Below are positions 3,265 through 25,727 of a stretch of 27,488 nt of DNA, in pieces. Under the pieces are notes generated by a model that saw nothing but the letters and a program-made list of their open reading frames with translations, was not told the DNA's origin and did not search any database. Origin of the DNA: a virus; the IMG/VR virus record IMGVR_UViG_3300001533_001017, positions 1 to 27,488 of that record. The stretch is one strand, 5' to 3'. Position 1 is the stretch's first letter. Each line of letters opens with the position of its first letter. Position numbers and translations under genes: made by a program.

Positions 3265-3295
3265 ATTTTTATGTTGTTTAACGCTTCTTATTTTA

Positions 3296-3538
3296 CTATT
3301 TATCGAAAATACAACGGACGGAGTAACTGCTCGCCTTATTGCTGTAGTCCGCACCCCCATTGTAGAAGTACAGGTACCACGCACCAGTAGTGGAGCCCTC
3401 AGTGCTGGACCAATAGGAGATCGCCACAAAACCTTCTTCTTTTTCTTCGTAGGCTTTCAATAGTTCCCAAAGTTTAGGAAGTCTTCCTCCTTGTTCCTCG
3501 CACCATATTTTTGCTTCGCCCCACATTATCTTGTCCAT
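3296..3538 (-). CDS. C-type-lectin-fold mini-protein (DUF1566-like), hypervariable
   Basis: 80 residues with the DUF1566 / Lcl C-terminal signature in a compact form: WGEAKIWCEEQGGRLPKLWE, then YWSSTEGSTTGAWYLYF, a glycine turn and a final VRCIF strand. This is a C-type-lectin-related fold used for binding, also in variable proteins of diversity-generating retroelements (DGRs). There is no signal peptide or other domain, so it is a free-standing binding module or one chain of a complex. A second copy lies at 3993-4243. The two are identical over 96 bp of the 5' coding part but differ at 18 residues in the C-terminal half, at the ligand-binding face expected for this fold. It is made with the early strand rather than with the tail genes, which is odd for a receptor binder. 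Confidence 0.7.
   Translation of the reverse strand: MDKIMWGEAKIWCEEQGGRLPKLWELLKAYEEKEEGFVAISYWSSTEGSTTGAWYLYFYNGGADYSNKASSYSVRCIFDK
3321..3422 (-). repeat. Variable-repeat-like segment, copy A
   Basis: This 102-bp segment aligns without gaps to 4018-4119 and differs at 30 positions. The flanks are identical (3301-3320 on one side, 3423-3518 on the other). On the coding strand at least one copy has A at 21 of the 30 sites, and the changes fall mainly on first and second codon positions of AAC-like codons. This is the pattern left by adenine-directed mutagenesis of a DGR variable repeat. No template repeat or reverse transcriptase is in the window. Confidence 0.65.
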
Positions 3539-3547
3539 ATTATTTTA

Positions 3548-3967
3548 TTATTTGATTATTGCATTCCCGTGAATAATAGATTGCCCACTAATTCGTGCCT
3601 TTCCCGATACACTAGCTTCGTCAAAAACTTGAGCAGTCCCATAGACAATAGCATCGCCACATACTTTAGCTCTCTGGTACACGTGAGCATCACCATATAC
3701 TTGAGCATCATCATAAATCCAAGCATCGCCATACACCCGAGCATTACCAGAAACCCAAGCATTACCAGAAACCCAAGCGTTACCATACACAATAGCCCCA
3801 CAGGATACCCTAGCGTTTTCAGCTACCCAAGAGAAACCTTCTTGACTTAAATTTTCTTCTCTCTCTATATACCCTCCAAGTTCTCCTTTTTTTATTCCAG
3901 CGAAATCCTTAATGGCTTGAATTTGATAAAGATTTTTTATTTTATTTTCTGTCAATTTATATTTCAT
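3548..3967 (-). CDS. Left-handed beta-helix (hexapeptide-type repeat) protein
   Basis: 139 residues. Residues 1-45 (IQAIKDFAGIKKGELGGYIE region) form the conserved cap seen in a phage and bacterial family of repeat proteins. Residues about 50-135 are tandem repeats of the type A-x-V-x-G-N/D, for example GNAWVSGNAWVSGNARVYGD, predicted to coil into a left-handed parallel beta-helix. Such proteins are structural or binding modules. No acetyltransferase active-site loop is seen. It sits exactly between the two lectin-like cassettes with normal short gaps, so the three may form one functional set. The repeats are coding, not CRISPR. Confidence 0.7.
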   Translation of the reverse strand: MKYKLTENKIKNLYQIQAIKDFAGIKKGELGGYIEREENLSQEGFSWVAENARVSCGAIVYGNAWVSGNAWVSGNARVYGDAWIYDDAQVYGDAHVYQRAKVCGDAIVYGTAQVFDEASVSGKARISGQSIIHGNAIIK

Positions 3968-3992
3968 ATTATTTTATTATTTGATTATTTTA

Positions 3993-4243
3993 TTATTTAT
4001 CGAAAATACAACGGACGTAGAAACTGTACGTCTTAAGGTTGTAGTTCGTAGTCCCATAGAGGAAGTTCACGGTCCACGCGTACGTAGTAGAACCCTCAGT
4101 GCTGGACCAACAGTTGTTAGCCACAAAACCTTCTTCTTTTTCTTCGTAGGCTTTCAATAGTTCCCAAAGTTTAGGAAGTCTTCCTCCTTGTTCCTCGCAC
4201 CATATTTTTGCTTCGTTGACTCACTCCACACTATTTTTTCCAT
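3993..4243 (-). pseudogene. Second C-type-lectin cassette, frameshifted
   Basis: This is a paralogue of the 3296-3538 gene. Its ATG (4243) and the first residues (MEKIVW) match. Then 11 bases, read AGTGAGTCAAC on the coding strand, replace three bases (GGC), a net gain of 8 bases that breaks the frame. In the lectin frame there is a TGA just upstream and no start codon before the fold begins, so the intact C-terminal half is not translated unless the ribosome shifts. Yet the fold-encoding part is perfect: YWSSTE-type core (here CWSSTEGSTTYAW), glycine turn and VRCIF end. Its variable residues are rich in N and T, and AAC codons are frequent. It may be a silent reservoir or a recently broken gene. 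Confidence 0.7.
4018..4119 (-). repeat. Variable-repeat-like segment, copy B
   Basis: Partner of 3321-3422, with the same length and no indels. It cannot be the unmutated template: at the 30 differing sites it has A on the coding strand at fewer than half, and a template should have A at essentially all of them. Both copies therefore look like products of a common source. Confidence 0.6.
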
Positions 4244-4244
4244 A

Positions 4245-4373
4245 TTATTTGATTATTTGATTATTAATACATTGAGTTGAATAGCACCGTTCTTTTATTT
4301 CCACAGTCAAGAGAATAGCACCCATAAGGGTGATAAATATCCCCGTAAAAATCATTATTATTGCAAATTCCAT
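4245..4373 (-). CDS. Small single-helix membrane protein, 42 aa
   Basis: Begins MEFAIIMIFTGIFITLMGAI, one long hydrophobic helix, followed by a charged tail with two cysteines (ERCYSTQC). The stop TAA is 1 base before the ATG of the broken lectin cassette, the same tight spacing as between other genes here. Function unknown; holin-like, antiholin-like or superinfection-exclusion peptides have this form. There is no strong ribosome binding site. Confidence 0.45.
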   Translation of the reverse strand: MEFAIIMIFTGIFITLMGAILLTVEIKERCYSTQCINNQIIK

Positions 4374-18607: not shown

Positions 18608-20416
18608 ATGGAAAAAGAAAAAGCATTGCAGAAACTCATTCGTTTCATAGAAGACAATGAAGAGGGTCTCGTTGAAGTAGACGAGAATAACTCATATTCA
18701 ATGCGACTTGTTAATCAAGAAAATTACAGATTGTACCACAGAAAGCTAAAAGTACCTGAAGTAGAACCTAATAACTTCAGGAATATTTTCTTTCCTAAAA
18801 TGTGGGTAGTTTATAGAACAATCGTACAAAATGCAGACGTAGACTTAAAACATCTCAATATACGGATAACTGACGGCGTAAAAGCAAAGGTTGCTCCTCT
18901 TTTGAGAATGGCATATCAATCCCACCTTTCAAGGAACTCTTTCGGAGAATTTCTCGATGAAACGCTTTCTGTTATGGCGTGGTTTGGAAGTGCCGTAGTA
19001 AAAAGATGCGATGGTGGTGTATTTGTTGTCGATTGGAGAAACTACATAACCGAGCCAAATAACCCAAATCCACAAACACGAAGCCACGCAGAACTTCTTT
19101 ATAAGACAAAAGAAGAGATTGACTCGTATGGTTGGGACAGTGCAGAAATAAACGAACTCTGGGAGAAAATGCTTTCTCAAAACGAACACCTCTTCAAAGT
19201 CATTGAGTTCTGGACGTTTGATGAGAATGGCAAAAAGATTTGTATCAAAGCTATAGACAATACCTTAAATCTTCCAGAAGAGTCCCACGACAGACAATTC
19301 TGGTCTCCGTATATTGTAACAGACGTGTTTGAAAGTCCTTATAAGAAAAGAAGGGCTTCAAAAAGACTTCGCAAGGCTCTTGGGGAAGAAGAAAGAATGT
19401 TTCCTTACGAGCAGTTTGATTTGTTTTCGTGCTTTGGAAGAACACAAGGACTTGGCTGTGGAGAACTTTTGGGTGGACTTCAAGACATTTATAATGAACT
19501 CTTTTCTAATAAAAGGAAGGCAGACAGAAAAGCTCTAATGGGCGTAACGATACATAAATCAGTACTTACTAATAATGGACTTTCTCAAATCGCTCAAGAA
19601 TTTATTTCCAATCTTACTACGGGGTCTGTTATATCCCTCGCTCCTGGTGAAGATTTGCAAACAATGCAATTTGACACACGAGCAACAGACTTTCAGATAA
19701 TGGAAGAAAAAATCTACGAGCTTATGAGACAAATTATGGGGGTAACTATGCAAGGGACAGGAGAAGAACTTCCTTCAGCAACTTCGGCAACACAAGCTCA
19801 AATAAACGAGTCTAACGCTCAAACAGTATATAACTTTGTACGAGAACGTATACATCACGGAATAAAGAAACTTTTTCACAATGGATACGCCAGAGATATT
19901 GTAGAAGAAATGGAAGAAGAGGAGTTTATCTCTATTATAGGAGACCCTGCACAACTGGAAGAGATTGACGCTTTTTATACCAAAAATGCTATAAATAACT
20001 GGGCTTTAGAAGTAAAAAACAAAACAGGAAAGTATCCTGAAATGGAAGAATACCAAGTCGCAGAAGGAATGCTTCGTCAAGGACTTCGTTCAATGGGAGA
20101 CACAAGATTTTTACAATTCACCAAAGATATCGCCAAAGACCTCCAGTATATGTTTGAGTTTGAAATAACTGACGAGAGCTTTAATGCTATCGGACGCTCG
20201 CAAGCTCTTATGGCTATTAAAGCCGACCCAACATCTACCAAGAGTAAAGCAAAGATTGAAGATGAACTTATATTGATGCAAGGACTCAATCCTCGAAACT
20301 TTGATAAAACACAGCAAGAGATTGAAGCCGAGCAACAAAGGTCAGAACAAATGGAACAAGTAAAAATGCCAAGAGAAGCAAAGGTTGCTCCTGACCAATT
20401 CCCACAACCTCTATGA
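18608..20416 (+). CDS. Portal protein
   Basis: 602 residues. It follows TerL by 18 bases, the standard order. N-terminal wing-rich part with NYRLYHRKLKVPEVEPNNF and FPKMWVVYRTIVQN, a central stem region with NNGLSQIAQEFISNL and LAPGEDLQTMQF, and TSATQAQINESNAQTVYNF, which resembles the portal helix facing the DNA channel. C-terminal 150 residues are helical and end rich in Q and E. A dodecamer ring at one vertex is expected. Start ATG has no good ribosome site. The portal family is clear from order and length more than from one motif. Confidence 0.85.
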   Translation: MEKEKALQKLIRFIEDNEEGLVEVDENNSYSMRLVNQENYRLYHRKLKVPEVEPNNFRNIFFPKMWVVYRTIVQNADVDLKHLNIRITDGVKAKVAPLLRMAYQSHLSRNSFGEFLDETLSVMAWFGSAVVKRCDGGVFVVDWRNYITEPNNPNPQTRSHAELLYKTKEEIDSYGWDSAEINELWEKMLSQNEHLFKVIEFWTFDENGKKICIKAIDNTLNLPEESHDRQFWSPYIVTDVFESPYKKRRASKRLRKALGEEERMFPYEQFDLFSCFGRTQGLGCGELLGGLQDIYNELFSNKRKADRKALMGVTIHKSVLTNNGLSQIAQEFISNLTTGSVISLAPGEDLQTMQFDTRATDFQIMEEKIYELMRQIMGVTMQGTGEELPSATSATQAQINESNAQTVYNFVRERIHHGIKKLFHNGYARDIVEEMEEEEFISIIGDPAQLEEIDAFYTKNAINNWALEVKNKTGKYPEMEEYQVAEGMLRQGLRSMGDTRFLQFTKDIAKDLQYMFEFEITDESFNAIGRSQALMAIKADPTSTKSKAKIEDELILMQGLNPRNFDKTQQEIEAEQQRSEQMEQVKMPREAKVAPDQFPQPL

Positions 20417-20724
20417 AATCCGTTTTCTACAATGAAAAGTTAGCAGAAAAAGAAAAGGCTATGGCTGAAGCCGAGAGTGTTTTAGATACCAAAAGAAGTC
20501 TCTTCTTCAAAAAGATGTCAAAGAATAAAGACTTTCAAAAATACGTTATAGAGGAAATTCTTGACAGAGAAATACAAGCAAATAAAGAAATCAGCAGTAA
20601 CTTTGAAATCCTTTTAGGGAAATCACCTGAAGAAATAAAAGACGCAATACTAGCAAAGTCTTCTGCTCTCCGTGCGTGTGAAGTTATAAAGCAAAAGATA
20701 CTCATCAATTATGACGGGGAATGA
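20413..20724 (+). CDS. Small helical head protein, 103 aa
   Basis: Starts with an ATGA overlap on the portal stop. The sequence is charged and helical throughout (EKLAEKEKAMAEAESVLDTK, EEIKDAILAKSSALRACEVI). It may be an internal head or scaffold-type helper. No family recognised. The next gene overlaps it by 14 bases. Confidence 0.6.
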   Translation: MKSVFYNEKLAEKEKAMAEAESVLDTKRSLFFKKMSKNKDFQKYVIEEILDREIQANKEISSNFEILLGKSPEEIKDAILAKSSALRACEVIKQKILINYDGE

Positions 20725-20920
20725 GAAAAGAATACAAACGTGGAAAAAAAATCCTAAACTTATAGAGGACGCTGTTTTCTATGGCAGAGTTGGTGGAATT
20801 ATAAAGAGGCGGTCTAAGTGGGATAACCCAGACTATAAAGAAGTCCACTGGAAAAAAATGGAAAAACATAAAAACTGGAGACAAAACTTGACAAAAGTAG
20901 ACTCTAGTGGCAATAATTAA
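20711..20920 (+). CDS. Small basic protein, 69 aa
   Basis: Begins MTGNEKRIQTWKKNPKLIED and is rich in K, W and R (RRSKWDNPDYKEVHWKKMEK). It is likely to bind nucleic acid or a partner head protein. It lies between portal and scaffold genes, overlapping the former helper gene by 14 bases. Unknown family. Confidence 0.5.
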   Translation: MTGNEKRIQTWKKNPKLIEDAVFYGRVGGIIKRRSKWDNPDYKEVHWKKMEKHKNWRQNLTKVDSSGNN

Positions 20921-20970
20921 AGTAACGCTAACAGATTTCAATAAGAAATCGGCGTAGTAACTCACAATCT

Positions 20971-21525
20971 ATGTCAGAAGAAAAGTCAAACCTTGACGAG
21001 CGAGAGGATGAGGACATCTTTGATGAACCCAAAACCTTAAACGACTCTGAAGGAGACCAGTCAGAAGACACGTCAGCTCTCGATGAATATAATAGAAGAA
21101 CAGGGAAGAACTTTAAGTCGTGGGACGATGTCGTCAAATCCACGAAAGAAGCAGATAAACTGTTTTCCAAAGGTATACATAAAGAGCAACCGAAAGTAGT
21201 AGATGATGTAAGCGAATTATTTTTTACCACAACGCCACAAGCCGAGCTTGTAAAAGATGACCTCGAGAAAGTTTCTAAACTTCACGGGGGGAGTATCTTA
21301 AAAGCGTGGAGAGAAGAAAAATGGCTACAAGAAAAAGCAACTTTACTTTCAAAAGAACGTGAGGAAGAAAGAGAGAATTTAAGCAAAATAGGTAGACCAA
21401 GTCCAGGTAAAAGTGCTTCAATGAATTTTTCTCAAGTAGACCTTTCAAATCCTGAACACGTCAAATGGTTAAATTCAAAAGAAGGACGAAGAAAAGAATA
21501 TCTTGGCTGGTACGCCTCAAAATAA
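20971..21525 (+). CDS. Scaffolding protein (putative)
   Basis: 184 residues, acidic N-terminus (EEKSNLDEREDEDIFDEPKT) and a C-terminal coiled-coil-like half (EEKWLQEKATLLSKEREEER) ending KEGRRKEYLGWYASK. It directly precedes the capsid gene, three bases away. Scaffolds guide procapsid assembly and are then lost or cut. No protease gene is present in this window. Position and composition support the call; the sequence itself is not diagnostic. Confidence 0.65.
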   Translation: MSEEKSNLDEREDEDIFDEPKTLNDSEGDQSEDTSALDEYNRRTGKNFKSWDDVVKSTKEADKLFSKGIHKEQPKVVDDVSELFFTTTPQAELVKDDLEKVSKLHGGSILKAWREEKWLQEKATLLSKEREEERENLSKIGRPSPGKSASMNFSQVDLSNPEHVKWLNSKEGRRKEYLGWYASK

Positions 21526-21528
21526 AGT

Positions 21529-22428
21529 ATGGCAAATACATTAGAACATCTCATTCGTGAGGTTTGGGCTCCTGAAGTACAGGAAAACGCTACAAAATCC
21601 CAAGTAGCAATGGATATATGTGAAGTTATAGAACTTGCAGACGGCGATACATACAATAACCCAACAGCTTCAGACCCTTCTGTTGGAATATATACTCGTA
21701 ACCCTGCTTCTGCTGGTGTTACTTCTTCGGCAATCGAAACAACTAACGAACAACTTTTGATAAATACTGCAAAGTATGCATCATTCTTCGTTGATCGATT
21801 GGATGAAAAGCAAATGAAATATCGTATCAATGGTCGTCTTAAAGACCGTTCTACGTACCTTTTGCGAGACACTATTGACCAAGCAATCCTTGCAGAATAT
21901 GCAAACGCTGGTTCAGTAGTAGATGAAGGAAACATCGGTGGAACGTCTGGTGTTCCTATCGGAGTTAGTTCTTCAAACGTTATGGATGTTATCCTTGCAG
22001 GACTTACTGCTCTTGCAGAAAAAGACGTTGAAATTGACAGAGGAGACATTTTCCTCATTATGCCTCCTAAAGATTACTTAATGTTTCTTCAGAAATATCT
22101 CGTAGGAACAGGGTACGCTCTTGGAGATGAGTCAATCAAACGAGGATACAAAGGAACAATTCAAGATGTACATATTTACACATCTCGAAACCTTACTCAA
22201 ACAGTTGAGTCTTCATACGCTGCAAAGCACTGGTTAATGGGACGAAAAGGAGCAATCTCCTTTGGAAAGAACGCTGGTTCTTTGGTAAATCTCGAAATGA
22301 AACAAAATCCAACATTGGCAGACGGAACAGTCGCACTTGGAACACAGTACATTCTCTGGGATTTGTACGGAAAGAAAACCTTCACAGAAGGTGCACGAGA
22401 GTTAGTAGATATTGAAGTAAGAATATAG
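21529..22428 (+). CDS. Major capsid protein
   Basis: 299 residues, HK97-fold length. N-terminal helix (NTLEHLIREVWAPEVQENAT), then a long loop region with TASDPSVGIYTRNPASAGVT, a helical spine with TAKYASFFVDRLDEKQMKYR and LLRDTIDQAILAEYANAG, and a C-terminal domain with FLIMPPKDYLMFLQKYLVG and ISFGKNAGSLVN. This P-domain/A-domain order fits phage coat proteins. It is the likely most-expressed late gene; a hairpin follows it. No cleavage site is evident at the N-terminus. Confidence 0.85.
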   Translation: MANTLEHLIREVWAPEVQENATKSQVAMDICEVIELADGDTYNNPTASDPSVGIYTRNPASAGVTSSAIETTNEQLLINTAKYASFFVDRLDEKQMKYRINGRLKDRSTYLLRDTIDQAILAEYANAGSVVDEGNIGGTSGVPIGVSSSNVMDVILAGLTALAEKDVEIDRGDIFLIMPPKDYLMFLQKYLVGTGYALGDESIKRGYKGTIQDVHIYTSRNLTQTVESSYAAKHWLMGRKGAISFGKNAGSLVNLEMKQNPTLADGTVALGTQYILWDLYGKKTFTEGARELVDIEVRI

Positions 22429-22436
22429 TCTTCTTC

Positions 22437-22460
22437 CATAGTCCCTTTCGGGGGGCTATG
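22437..22460 (+). other. Hairpin after the capsid gene
   Basis: CATAGTCCC-TTTCGG-GGGGCTATG-type stem of 9 bp with one G-T pair. No T tract follows, so read-through to the glycosyltransferase genes is likely. It could raise capsid message stability or partly end it. A following AAGGA serves the next start. Confidence 0.6.
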
Positions 22461-22473
22461 ATAAGGACATTAT

Positions 22474-23862
22474 ATGCGTATACAAAATAGATTTGGCAGG
22501 TTAGTAGATGTCCCTGAAGAGCAGGCTAAATTTATGGTTTCCAATGGGGAGGCAACCTACGCAACCGAAATTGTACAGCCTAAAAAACTCTTGGGCTGTC
22601 CTTATTGTTTCTGCGACCATAAAGGCGATGAATGTTTCAAAGACGCACCACTTATTTCTATTGTTATACCTTCTCGTTATAACGAAGAAATACAATCCCT
22701 TCTTTCTTTGGAAAAACAATCGTACAAGAAAATAGAAATAATCATACAAAAAGACAGGTTTAAAAAAGGAGCAAACGTAATGCGTAACGCTGGAGCAAAA
22801 AAAGCAAAAGGCGAGTTTATTCTTTTTTCCGACAATGACTTAGAGTGGGATAAAGACGCTATTGCCGTCCTTTATAAAACGCTTGTCCAAAGTGATAAAG
22901 GATATTCTTACGGAGCGTACACGCTTGACGGAAACCTTATTGGAAACAAAGAATTTTCTTCTCACGACCTTTGGAGATATAACTATATCTCTACGATGTC
23001 GCTTATACGAAAAGTCGTCTGGGAAAAATCAGGTGGATTTGACCCTAAAATTAAACGCTTTCAGGATTGGGATTTGTGGCTTAGCTTACTTGGAAAAGGC
23101 ATAGAAGGAGTTTATTGTGGCTCGACAGTCTTTTCTACTAAGTATCGAAAAGGCATAACCTTTGGAGACACTGAACAAGAGGAAGCACGAAAGATTGTGC
23201 TTTCTAAACACAACATCAAACAAACCAAACTTGCCGATATTATAATCCCTCACCAAAACCGCCACGACCTTTTGAAAGAATGTCTTGAAAGGCTCTCTTA
23301 TGACAATTTCAATATTTACGTTATCGGAGGGAGTACCTTTTCGGTAAACTGCAACAAGGGAGCAAAACTTGCCGAAACGGATGACCTTATTTTTATAAAT
23401 GATGACACTGAACCAGAAGAAAGTGTTATACAAGAAATGCTTCAAAGTACCGAAGATATTGTAGGCTGTGCTCAAATTCATCCCGATAAAACCATTTTGT
23501 ATGGGATTTCATACAAATGGAAAAATGGCTTTATTGACGAACACCTTTCAACGTCTCTCAAAGACTCTCTTATTCCAACGGGATTTCTTTTTAGAGTAAA
23601 ACGAAAAGCGTGGGAACAACTGGGAGGACTAGACGAGACATTTAAAAACGGAGGAGAAGACCAAGAATTATTCTTATCAGCTTTTGAAAAAGGAATGACG
23701 ATTAAGATTATCAAAACCCCAACCCTTCACCGCCACTCACAGTCTCGTGATAGGTTCAAACACACCAGAGACAACAGGATAGAACTCAATAAACGCTGGA
23801 CACCAGAGAGAGTAAAAAAGGTTATAGATAAAGTAAAAAAAGAAAACCTTCTCCGTATATGA
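22474..23862 (+). CDS. Tandem GT2-like glycosyltransferase with head-protein-like N-terminus
   Basis: 462 residues. Residues 1-30 (RIQNRFGRLVDVPEEQAKFM) resemble a short domain that often follows phage capsid genes. CPYCFCDHKGDEC (about 42-54) is a small cysteine site. Then two GT-A domains: the first from ISIVIPSRYNEE with ILFSDNDLEWD as DxD-like motif and SGGFDPKIKRFQDWDLW as acceptor loop; the second from ADIIIPHQNRHD with FINDDTEPEE and LDETFKNGGEDQELF. It uses a nucleotide-sugar to decorate a protein or polymer. Its place in the head operon points to glycosylation of virion proteins. AAGGA lies about 8 bases upstream of the ATG. Confidence 0.75.
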   Translation: MRIQNRFGRLVDVPEEQAKFMVSNGEATYATEIVQPKKLLGCPYCFCDHKGDECFKDAPLISIVIPSRYNEEIQSLLSLEKQSYKKIEIIIQKDRFKKGANVMRNAGAKKAKGEFILFSDNDLEWDKDAIAVLYKTLVQSDKGYSYGAYTLDGNLIGNKEFSSHDLWRYNYISTMSLIRKVVWEKSGGFDPKIKRFQDWDLWLSLLGKGIEGVYCGSTVFSTKYRKGITFGDTEQEEARKIVLSKHNIKQTKLADIIIPHQNRHDLLKECLERLSYDNFNIYVIGGSTFSVNCNKGAKLAETDDLIFINDDTEPEESVIQEMLQSTEDIVGCAQIHPDKTILYGISYKWKNGFIDEHLSTSLKDSLIPTGFLFRVKRKAWEQLGGLDETFKNGGEDQELFLSAFEKGMTIKIIKTPTLHRHSQSRDRFKHTRDNRIELNKRWTPERVKKVIDKVKKENLLRI

Positions 23863-24530
23863 AAATAGCAATTTACACCTTAACCAGAGAGAGACTTGAA
23901 TACACAAAAGACTGCTTTCAATCATTGAAAGAGAAAGCAGGACATCCATACGACCACTATGTAGTAGACAATGGCAGTAAAGACGGAACAGTAGAATGGC
24001 TCAAAGAAAACGACTTTAAAAAAGTTATTTACAATCCTGAAAACGTAGGGATTTCCAAAGGAAGCAATCAAGCTCTGGAAGAAATATTCAAAGAAAACTA
24101 CGACCTGATAATTAAAATGGATAATGACTGTTTTATAGAAACAGACGGGATACTACGAGAAATTGTAAAGATTTACTCTTCTTTGGGACAATTTTCCCCA
24201 CAATATGTCCTTTCTCCTTATGTAAACGGCATAAATAATCAACCTACTCGTGGAGGAAAAGACGGCATTGCCACCTACACCATAGGACTTACTGCAATCG
24301 TGGGCGGACTTTTTCACATTGTGCCTTCTTTGGTGTATAGTAAATATAGGTATGATGAGAAACTCCCACTTGCAAAATACCAAGATGATTTCTTTTGCAA
24401 ATGGGTAAAAGAAAATGGTGGAAGAGTGGGATACATTGAGGAATTAAAAGTCCAACACTATGAAGGAACGGATAATCAAGCCAAGCGATTTCCCCTCTAT
24501 TTCGAGAGAAAATGGAAAGAGGAGGTATGA
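23859..24530 (+). CDS. GT2 family glycosyltransferase
   Basis: 223 residues, single GT-A domain: MKIAIYTLTRERLEYTKDCF, then YDHYVVDNGSKDGTVEWLKE, NVGISKGSNQAL and the DxD-type IIKMDNDCF. YDEKLPLAKYQDDFFCKWV carries the catalytic ED/DD-like base region. Overlaps the previous gene by 4 bases (ATGA), so both transferases are made together and probably add sugars in sequence. Specificity cannot be read from sequence. Confidence 0.8.
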   Translation: MKIAIYTLTRERLEYTKDCFQSLKEKAGHPYDHYVVDNGSKDGTVEWLKENDFKKVIYNPENVGISKGSNQALEEIFKENYDLIIKMDNDCFIETDGILREIVKIYSSLGQFSPQYVLSPYVNGINNQPTRGGKDGIATYTIGLTAIVGGLFHIVPSLVYSKYRYDEKLPLAKYQDDFFCKWVKENGGRVGYIEELKVQHYEGTDNQAKRFPLYFERKWKEEV

Positions 24531-25039
24531 TAGTAGACGCAGATGATTTTTGCCAAACAAACACAGGAATAGAAACGCTTCTTTACTTAAAAGAAAAGCG
24601 ACCTGACTTCAAAATATCACTCTTTACAATACCGAAACTTTGTGGTAATATTTTTATAGAAAGAATGAAAAGGTTCTCGTGGATTGAAATGCTACCGCAC
24701 GGAGAGTTCCACCCACACCCAAGAGAGTGCCAAGACTGGACATACGAACGCTCAAAAGAGTATCTTAAAAGCATAGGGCCTCTAGGACTTAAAAAGATAT
24801 TCAAAGCACCTGGTTGGCAAATCTCTGACGGAATGTATCGTGCTTTACTAGAAGAAGGCTACGCTGTAGCAGACCAACACTACAATGACGAAAGAAGACC
24901 AAAGGAACTCGAAGTGTTCTATCCACCATTACATCATTACCACATAGGACATCTCGGGGGTATAAATAAAAATGAGATAGGAGACTTCACTAAAGAAATC
25001 CTTTCTATCGATAAATACGAATTCTATGAACGGAGCTAA
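24527..25039 (+). CDS. NodB-like polysaccharide deacetylase (putative)
   Basis: Start set at ATG 24527 (MIVDADDFCQ), a 4-base overlap with the transferase stop; an ATG at 24512 is also possible. About 170 residues. The first strand VDADDFC supplies the aspartate pair of carbohydrate esterase family 4, LPHGEFHPHPRE the zinc-binding H-x3-H, and IFKAPGWQISDGMYRALLEE the R/W-P-x-x strand. CE4 enzymes remove N- or O-acetyl groups from glycans. With the two transferases it would form a small glycan-modifying set in the head operon. The fold is shortened (about 170 instead of 200 or more), so activity is less sure than the family. Confidence 0.6.
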   Translation: MIVDADDFCQTNTGIETLLYLKEKRPDFKISLFTIPKLCGNIFIERMKRFSWIEMLPHGEFHPHPRECQDWTYERSKEYLKSIGPLGLKKIFKAPGWQISDGMYRALLEEGYAVADQHYNDERRPKELEVFYPPLHHYHIGHLGGINKNEIGDFTKEILSIDKYEFYERS

Positions 25040-25727
25040 AATCCTTTCCCTTGCACAAATACTTACCAATACTAATTCCTCTACCTTCCTTAATGGAGTT
25101 GAGGCAACAATGTACGAACACCTCAATATCTTTTACGGGCAAAGAATACTTGATATTTTACGGGTGCGAGTAGATGCTAATGCTACTATTCAGAAATCCT
25201 ATCAAACACACGTAAACGCCACTTCACTCGTAGAAGGAGAAAATGGCTACAACGGGGAATATGCTTTCCCAACAGATTTGCTAAGACCAGTACGAGTAGA
25301 AGTATCCTATGACGGACAAACGTGGAATAAAGCAACCTTTTATGACAATGCTCTTAATACTAACTCTGAACTTAATGCTTCTTCAGAAAGTCCTTCGCAG
25401 TCTAATCCACACGTAGATTTTAATCGTGGCTCATATTTCGTACGACCCGTAAACAAAACACAAGACGTAGCTAAAGGACTTTATATTGAATATGAAAAAC
25501 GACAAGCAGACTTTGACTCTTCTTCTGAACCAGAGGAGATAGAAAAAAACCTTCAAGACCTTCTTGCTTATGACGTAGCAGGACTTGAAATTATAATGAA
25601 TACCGATAAGTATTCCAGTGCTAAAATAACTATTTTCAACAACGCCAAAAGAGAAGTTGAGGATAGATTTTTTGCATTTTACCGAACAGGACTCCCTAGT
25701 AAAAAAGTAATGACCTTTATGTACTAA
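25026..25727 (+). CDS. Head-tail connector / adaptor protein (putative)
   Basis: 233 residues. N-terminal helix with GVEATMYEHLNIFYGQRILD, a beta-rich part with EYAFPTDLLRPVRVEVSYDG and a C-terminal helical region (EKNLQDLLAYDVAGLEIIMN). The FPTDLLRPVRVEV element is typical of adaptor proteins (gp6/gp4-like) that sit under the portal and take the tail. Overlaps the deacetylase by 14 bases. The exact fold family is not proven, but order portal - capsid - connector supports the call. Confidence 0.6.
   Translation: MNGAKILSLAQILTNTNSSTFLNGVEATMYEHLNIFYGQRILDILRVRVDANATIQKSYQTHVNATSLVEGENGYNGEYAFPTDLLRPVRVEVSYDGQTWNKATFYDNALNTNSELNASSESPSQSNPHVDFNRGSYFVRPVNKTQDVAKGLYIEYEKRQADFDSSSEPEEIEKNLQDLLAYDVAGLEIIMNTDKYSSAKITIFNNAKREVEDRFFAFYRTGLPSKKVMTFMY

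Follow-up and report, generated by a model that had tools for sequence, protein, structure and literature searches.

Two copies of a small lectin-like gene lie close together in a virus genome fragment, identical over one segment and highly divergent over the next, and the question that they raise is whether they are variable repeats (VRs) of a diversity-generating retroelement (DGR). The window, by which we mean the whole stretch of DNA analysed, is a linear virus fragment of 27,488 bp. Its left end starts inside a reading frame and its right end, as read from the sequence, appears to run out inside a tail-fibre-like gene; thus, a segment of the phage genome is missing from the record. Our reading is that the copies are probably two VRs of an ordinary DGR, with its reverse transcriptase (RT) and template either acting in trans or lying outside the sampled sequence. 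The divergent block works like a DGR target, and its membership of a DGR is unproven.

The duplication is an ungapped repeat of 231 bp on the minus strand (3288-3518 and 3985-4215; 87% identical), and the features within it are listed in Table 1. In the coding direction, 96 bp without any difference are followed by a gap-free block of 102 bp with 30 differences and then by the 3′ end, where 24 coding bases are identical and a single difference falls in the stop codon (TAG/TAA). The contrast between 0/96 and 30/102 bp is strong (Fisher p = 2e-10), and all 38 adenines that the two copies share in the constant segment are unchanged. Because the first ~20 coding bases also differ between the copies, the perfect 96 bp is bounded by divergence on both sides. 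This arrangement of an identical segment followed by a variable block at the C-terminal end of the gene, described in the first-pass annotation, was reproduced by our ungapped repeat comparison, and recounting returned the same 18 changed residues.

Table 1. Positions of the two lectin copies, their parts and the gene between them (numbering of the window)
Feature	Position	Strand
Copy 1, intact 80-aa ORF, C-terminal part of Lcl_C (DUF1566) domain	3296-3538	-
Copy 1 constant segment, same 96 bp as in copy 2	3423-3518	-
Copy 1 hypervariable block, 102 bp, candidate variable repeat	3321-3422	-
Copy 1 block, 3′ part, cleanest DGR-like pattern	3321-3382	-
Copy 1 constant 3′ end, same 24 bp as in copy 2, candidate 3′ homing anchor	3297-3320	-
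139-aa beta-solenoid protein between the lectin copies, YdcK-type repeats, phrog_5070	3548-3967	-
Copy 2, second lectin copy, frameshifted near start	3993-4243	-
Copy 2 constant segment, same 96 bp as in copy 1	4120-4215	-
Copy 2 hypervariable block, 102 bp, candidate variable repeat	4018-4119	-
Copy 2 constant 3′ end	3994-4017	-
Copy 2 start, diverged first codons and 8 extra bases shifting the frame	4216-4243	-

The differences in the block are distributed unevenly over codons and bases. Codon positions 1, 2 and 3 carry 13, 12 and 5 of them, which agrees with the earlier statement that most changes hit the first two bases (25/30), and the third base is kept in 17 of the 18 residue-changing codons; among codon pairs drawn at random from this genome, the figure is 27%. 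Under a harsher null that accepts amino-acid-changing mutations only, the third-base bias is weak (p = 0.09-0.19). The count of 21/30 sites with A in one copy, already given in the first-pass annotation, was also obtained here and represents a modest excess over the 49% expected (p = 0.015); at codon positions 1 and 2 alone, the proportion is 21/25 against an expected 62% (p = 0.016). Either copy was considered as a template and rejected, since the adenines are not confined to one copy (8 of the 30 sites in copy 1 and 13 in copy 2). The two parts of the block behave differently. All five third-position changes fall in the 5′ 42 bp, where the 11 variable sites comprise 5 synonymous and 6 non-synonymous changes and neither copy has A at 6 of them. 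The 3′ 63 bp holds 19 changes, every one non-synonymous and none at a third position, with A in one copy at 16/19; 0 of ~12 synonymous sites changed there versus 19 of ~51 non-synonymous sites.

Both copies belong to a protein family with a known association with DGRs. Pfam Lcl_C/DUF1566 (PF07603) matches them with E = 6e-7 and 2e-7, but only over the C-terminal part of the model; the N-terminal part of the domain is absent, and the scores of 30.2 and 31.5 bits lie under the curated cut-off of 34.9. The original description of the cassettes as DUF1566-like is thus upheld by the family match in both copies, at scores below that cut-off. Among solved chains, HbP1 (8q4e) is the nearest by family profile (E = 4e-8). 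Structure prediction with AlphaFold2 from three sequences gave a poor model (pLDDT 54), and Foldseek matches of that model are not meaningful; its helix-helix-three-strand order nevertheless fits the C-terminal half of a lectin fold. Since the model is poor, the lectin fold is predicted from family membership, and on this prediction the candidate VRs lie at the C-terminal end of a C-type-lectin-fold target. DUF1566 ranks first among the domains annotated in variable proteins of human-microbiome DGRs (PMC4159848). However, many Lcl_C/DUF1566 proteins are not DGR targets, and a DUF1566 homologue on a Phocaeicola plasmid has no RT or repeat nearby, so that a DGR does not follow from the domain by itself.

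Of all the evidence, most weight falls on homology to targets in phages with an intact DGR. Among 50,697 phage records, the only homologues were in Burkholderia phage Magia (MT701587; two records) and phage zrk29-1 (OP650936). The Magia homologue is annotated as a lectin-fold, potential DGR target adjoined by Avd and RT, and the genome paper reports a potential DGR (PMC7883833). Magia has a template (L015 4288-4377) and two VRs, and all template-VR mismatches (8/8 and 11/11) face template adenines; zrk29-1 likewise carries an RT together with a template-VR set that matches. Between the two Magia VRs there are 10 differences, 7 of them at sites with A (70%), the same share as the 21/30 found here. 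Nearly all known DGRs have ≥75% of mismatches facing template adenines (PMC8144416), a criterion that is limited to a comparison of VR with VR in the window because no template was found. When the block was aligned codon by codon with the known templates, starting from the shared GCG TGG, 11 of 15 variable bases lay on template adenines versus 11 or 10 of 36 invariant bases (p = 0.006 for Magia and 0.003 for zrk29-1), two tests that are not independent since the templates are close relatives.

The resemblance to Magia and zrk29-1 extends to the organization of the targets. Their targets are small, stand-alone, lectin-fold proteins homologous to copy 1, each phage has at least two of them, the variable block is C-terminal, and the variable sites align. 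In contrast, the targets of both phages are followed directly by RT, Avd and template, and none of the three was found here. Their targets keep the N-terminal strands and are 120-156 aa long, whereas copy 1, at 80 aa, begins only with the first helix, and their upstream segments are not identical between copies, unlike those in the window. The type system, the DGR of Bordetella phage BPP-1 (Mtd, Avd and Brt), is similar in that a lectin-type protein varies only towards its C-terminal end, at AAC-like codons. The reconstituted BPP-1 system converts AAC mainly into codons for Tyr, Ser and Asp (PMC12875486), three residues that are common at such codons of the block. However, Mtd is a large tail-fibre protein, while the protein here is tiny and encoded away from any tail gene with a shown function, and the BPP-1 system has the RT and template that were not found in this record. 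Several VRs occur in 28.6% of DGRs, mostly from one template (PMC6642488).

Searches for the machinery of such an element were negative. An RT hidden in the window was rejected, as six-frame translation of the 27,488 bp gave no RVT_1 match and a comparison with the RTs of Magia and zrk29-1 gave none either. The 3.3 kb downstream of copy 1, where both of those phages carry the RT, is filled by other genes. Neither a third copy of the repeat nor a template was found in the record, and Rfam gave no match. The ORFs scanned in this incomplete record included no Avd-like match; Avd is not present in every DGR. Scans of the viral collection with template patterns for the 5′ part of the block, its 3′ part and the 3′ constant end gave no template, nor did a broader DUF1566 pattern scan. 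The genome collection was scanned with the 5′-part pattern only and none was found, a search that would miss a template beginning further 3′. A scan of the same collection with copy 1 returned 84 pattern matches, none of them a homologue, and a diverse protein alignment was too variable to serve as a scan pattern. No second record with the same gene was found in the viral- and genome-collection scans. Because the record is an incomplete fragment, the missing RT and template do not refute a DGR.

Related phages were recovered through terminase and capsid (L004, 50% identity; L019, 66% identity), and neither RT nor Lcl_C was found in the two. The head-gene block from 18608 to 25727 is common to L019 and the window, and L019 has no Lcl_C, which indicates that the lectin cassettes are accessory. 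Two glycosyltransferase-2 family genes (22474-24530) are embedded in the operon of head genes, with the major head protein on one side and the adaptor on the other; their counterparts in L019/L023 show ~63% identity. Long arrays of 12-bp units, absent from the window, occur in relatives at L023 4520-5100, L025 2442-2857 and L026 8514-10109; the units in the latter two look Ser/Pro-coding. The absence of obvious Shine-Dalgarno sites and an AGA/ATA-rich codon use would fit an A/T-rich host in which initiation is unusual, possibly one of the Patescibacteria or Bacteroidota.

The second copy differs from the first in its coding capacity, which the first-pass annotation had overlooked. Eight extra bases near the start of copy 2 put the domain out of frame, so that it is not an intact ORF; the domain frame (3993-4214) has no ATG, GTG or TTG start, and one TGA is reported inside the copy. 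Copy 2 thus looks broken for expression or misassembled, and at present only copy 1 would make protein. Copy 2, the beta-solenoid gene and copy 1 are each preceded by a nearly identical A/T-rich leader, AATAATCAAATAATAAAATAAT-ATG. These leaders (3539-3560, 3968-3989 and 4244-4265) precede three consecutive minus-strand genes, as if the genes had been added in leader-plus-gene units.

If the copies are DGR targets, a lectin unit consisting of leader plus gene would have been duplicated, and the C-terminal segment of each copy would then have been overwritten by cDNA from a template RNA, with random bases inserted opposite template adenines. Change would be limited to the segment matching the template, and the 5′ part of the gene would for that reason have stayed identical. 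The product would be a small C-type-lectin-like protein with a randomized binding face, and the RT, the helper Avd and the template would reside in the host or in the stretch of phage genome that was not sampled. Several observations favour a DGR: the confined differences, the unchanged adenines of the constant segment, the conserved third bases, the excess of A and the coincidence of variable bases with adenines of the Magia and zrk29-1 templates, and above all the homology to targets in those two phages. The earlier proposal of two DGR VRs is therefore supported in part, by fold family, C-terminal position, adenine excess, third bases and homology to DGR targets, while the RT and template that it presupposes were not found. 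The case is weakened by their absence from the record, the relatives and the template-pattern scans, by the occupation of the downstream 3.3 kb by other genes, and by the 5′ 42 bp of the block with its five third-position changes and its 6/11 sites lacking A. The weak third-base bias under the amino-acid-changing null and the modest size of the adenine excess weaken it further.

Recombination combined with diversifying selection would need no retroelement: one copy would have taken the end of a diverged homologue from another phage through homologous exchange at the constant flanks, and ordinary mutation, with selection favouring new binding specificities, would account for the differences. 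The 5′ part of the block suits this explanation better, as its near-even mixture of synonymous and non-synonymous changes resembles ordinary divergence; point mutations accepted only when they change an amino acid explain the third-base pattern fairly well, and the failure to find an RT and template also counts in its favour. However, it is difficult to reconcile with the lack of synonymous change in the 3′ part, the adenine excess and the overlap with adenines of known templates, and no diverged donor was found among 2.9 million viral contigs, which yielded one distant homologue only. We therefore consider recombination and selection possible but rather unlikely. Assembly could also be suspected in a metagenomic fragment with perfectly repeated flanks and a frameshift at the repeat edge, either by setting two strain variants of one gene side by side or by misassembling the start of copy 2. 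A full unrelated gene separates the copies, though, and their outer neighbours and first codons differ, making an artefact scarcely probable; the block would still be hypervariable even if the copies were strain variants.

The frameshift in copy 2 bears on two further explanations. An unexpressed copy 2 could be a silent cassette whose block is moved into copy 1 by gene conversion through the 96-bp and 24-bp flanks. Copy 2 has no usable start, and a perfect 96 bp between diverged first codons and a variable block is what gene conversion would leave. Nevertheless, a single store is too few for useful switching, copy 2 retains its own leader and former start, and the origin of the variation in the block would still need a DGR or selection, so that we regard cassette switching as very improbable. 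A phage that has VRs only, with an RT and template of the host or a co-resident element diversifying the lectin in trans and the frameshifted copy as a silent store, is also conceivable, but we judge it distinctly unlikely. The preferred reading of two ordinary DGR VRs covers machinery that is either unsampled or acting in trans.

Confirmation would add an unusually small (80 aa) stand-alone lectin to the targets of phage DGRs, in a phage lineage that is sparsely represented in public collections. As a natural case of phage VRs without an adjacent RT, the locus could be used to test DGR action on phage genes in trans, and the identical upstream segments would allow the limits of mutagenesis to be measured cleanly within a single genome.

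Two other genes of the window deserve mention. The 316-aa gene at 1888-2838 contains a perfect tandem duplication of 69 bp (23 codons) at 2040-2177, with two identical copies of GDCLSAPVPEDSKVDHLEHQIF; such perfect identity points to either a very recent duplication or an effect of assembly. A 486-aa DUF2828/DUF7788 protein (7138-8598; phrog_850, annotated as RNA-binding, E = 3e-147) resembles the Ro60/TROVE type, an unusual cargo for a phage of this size.
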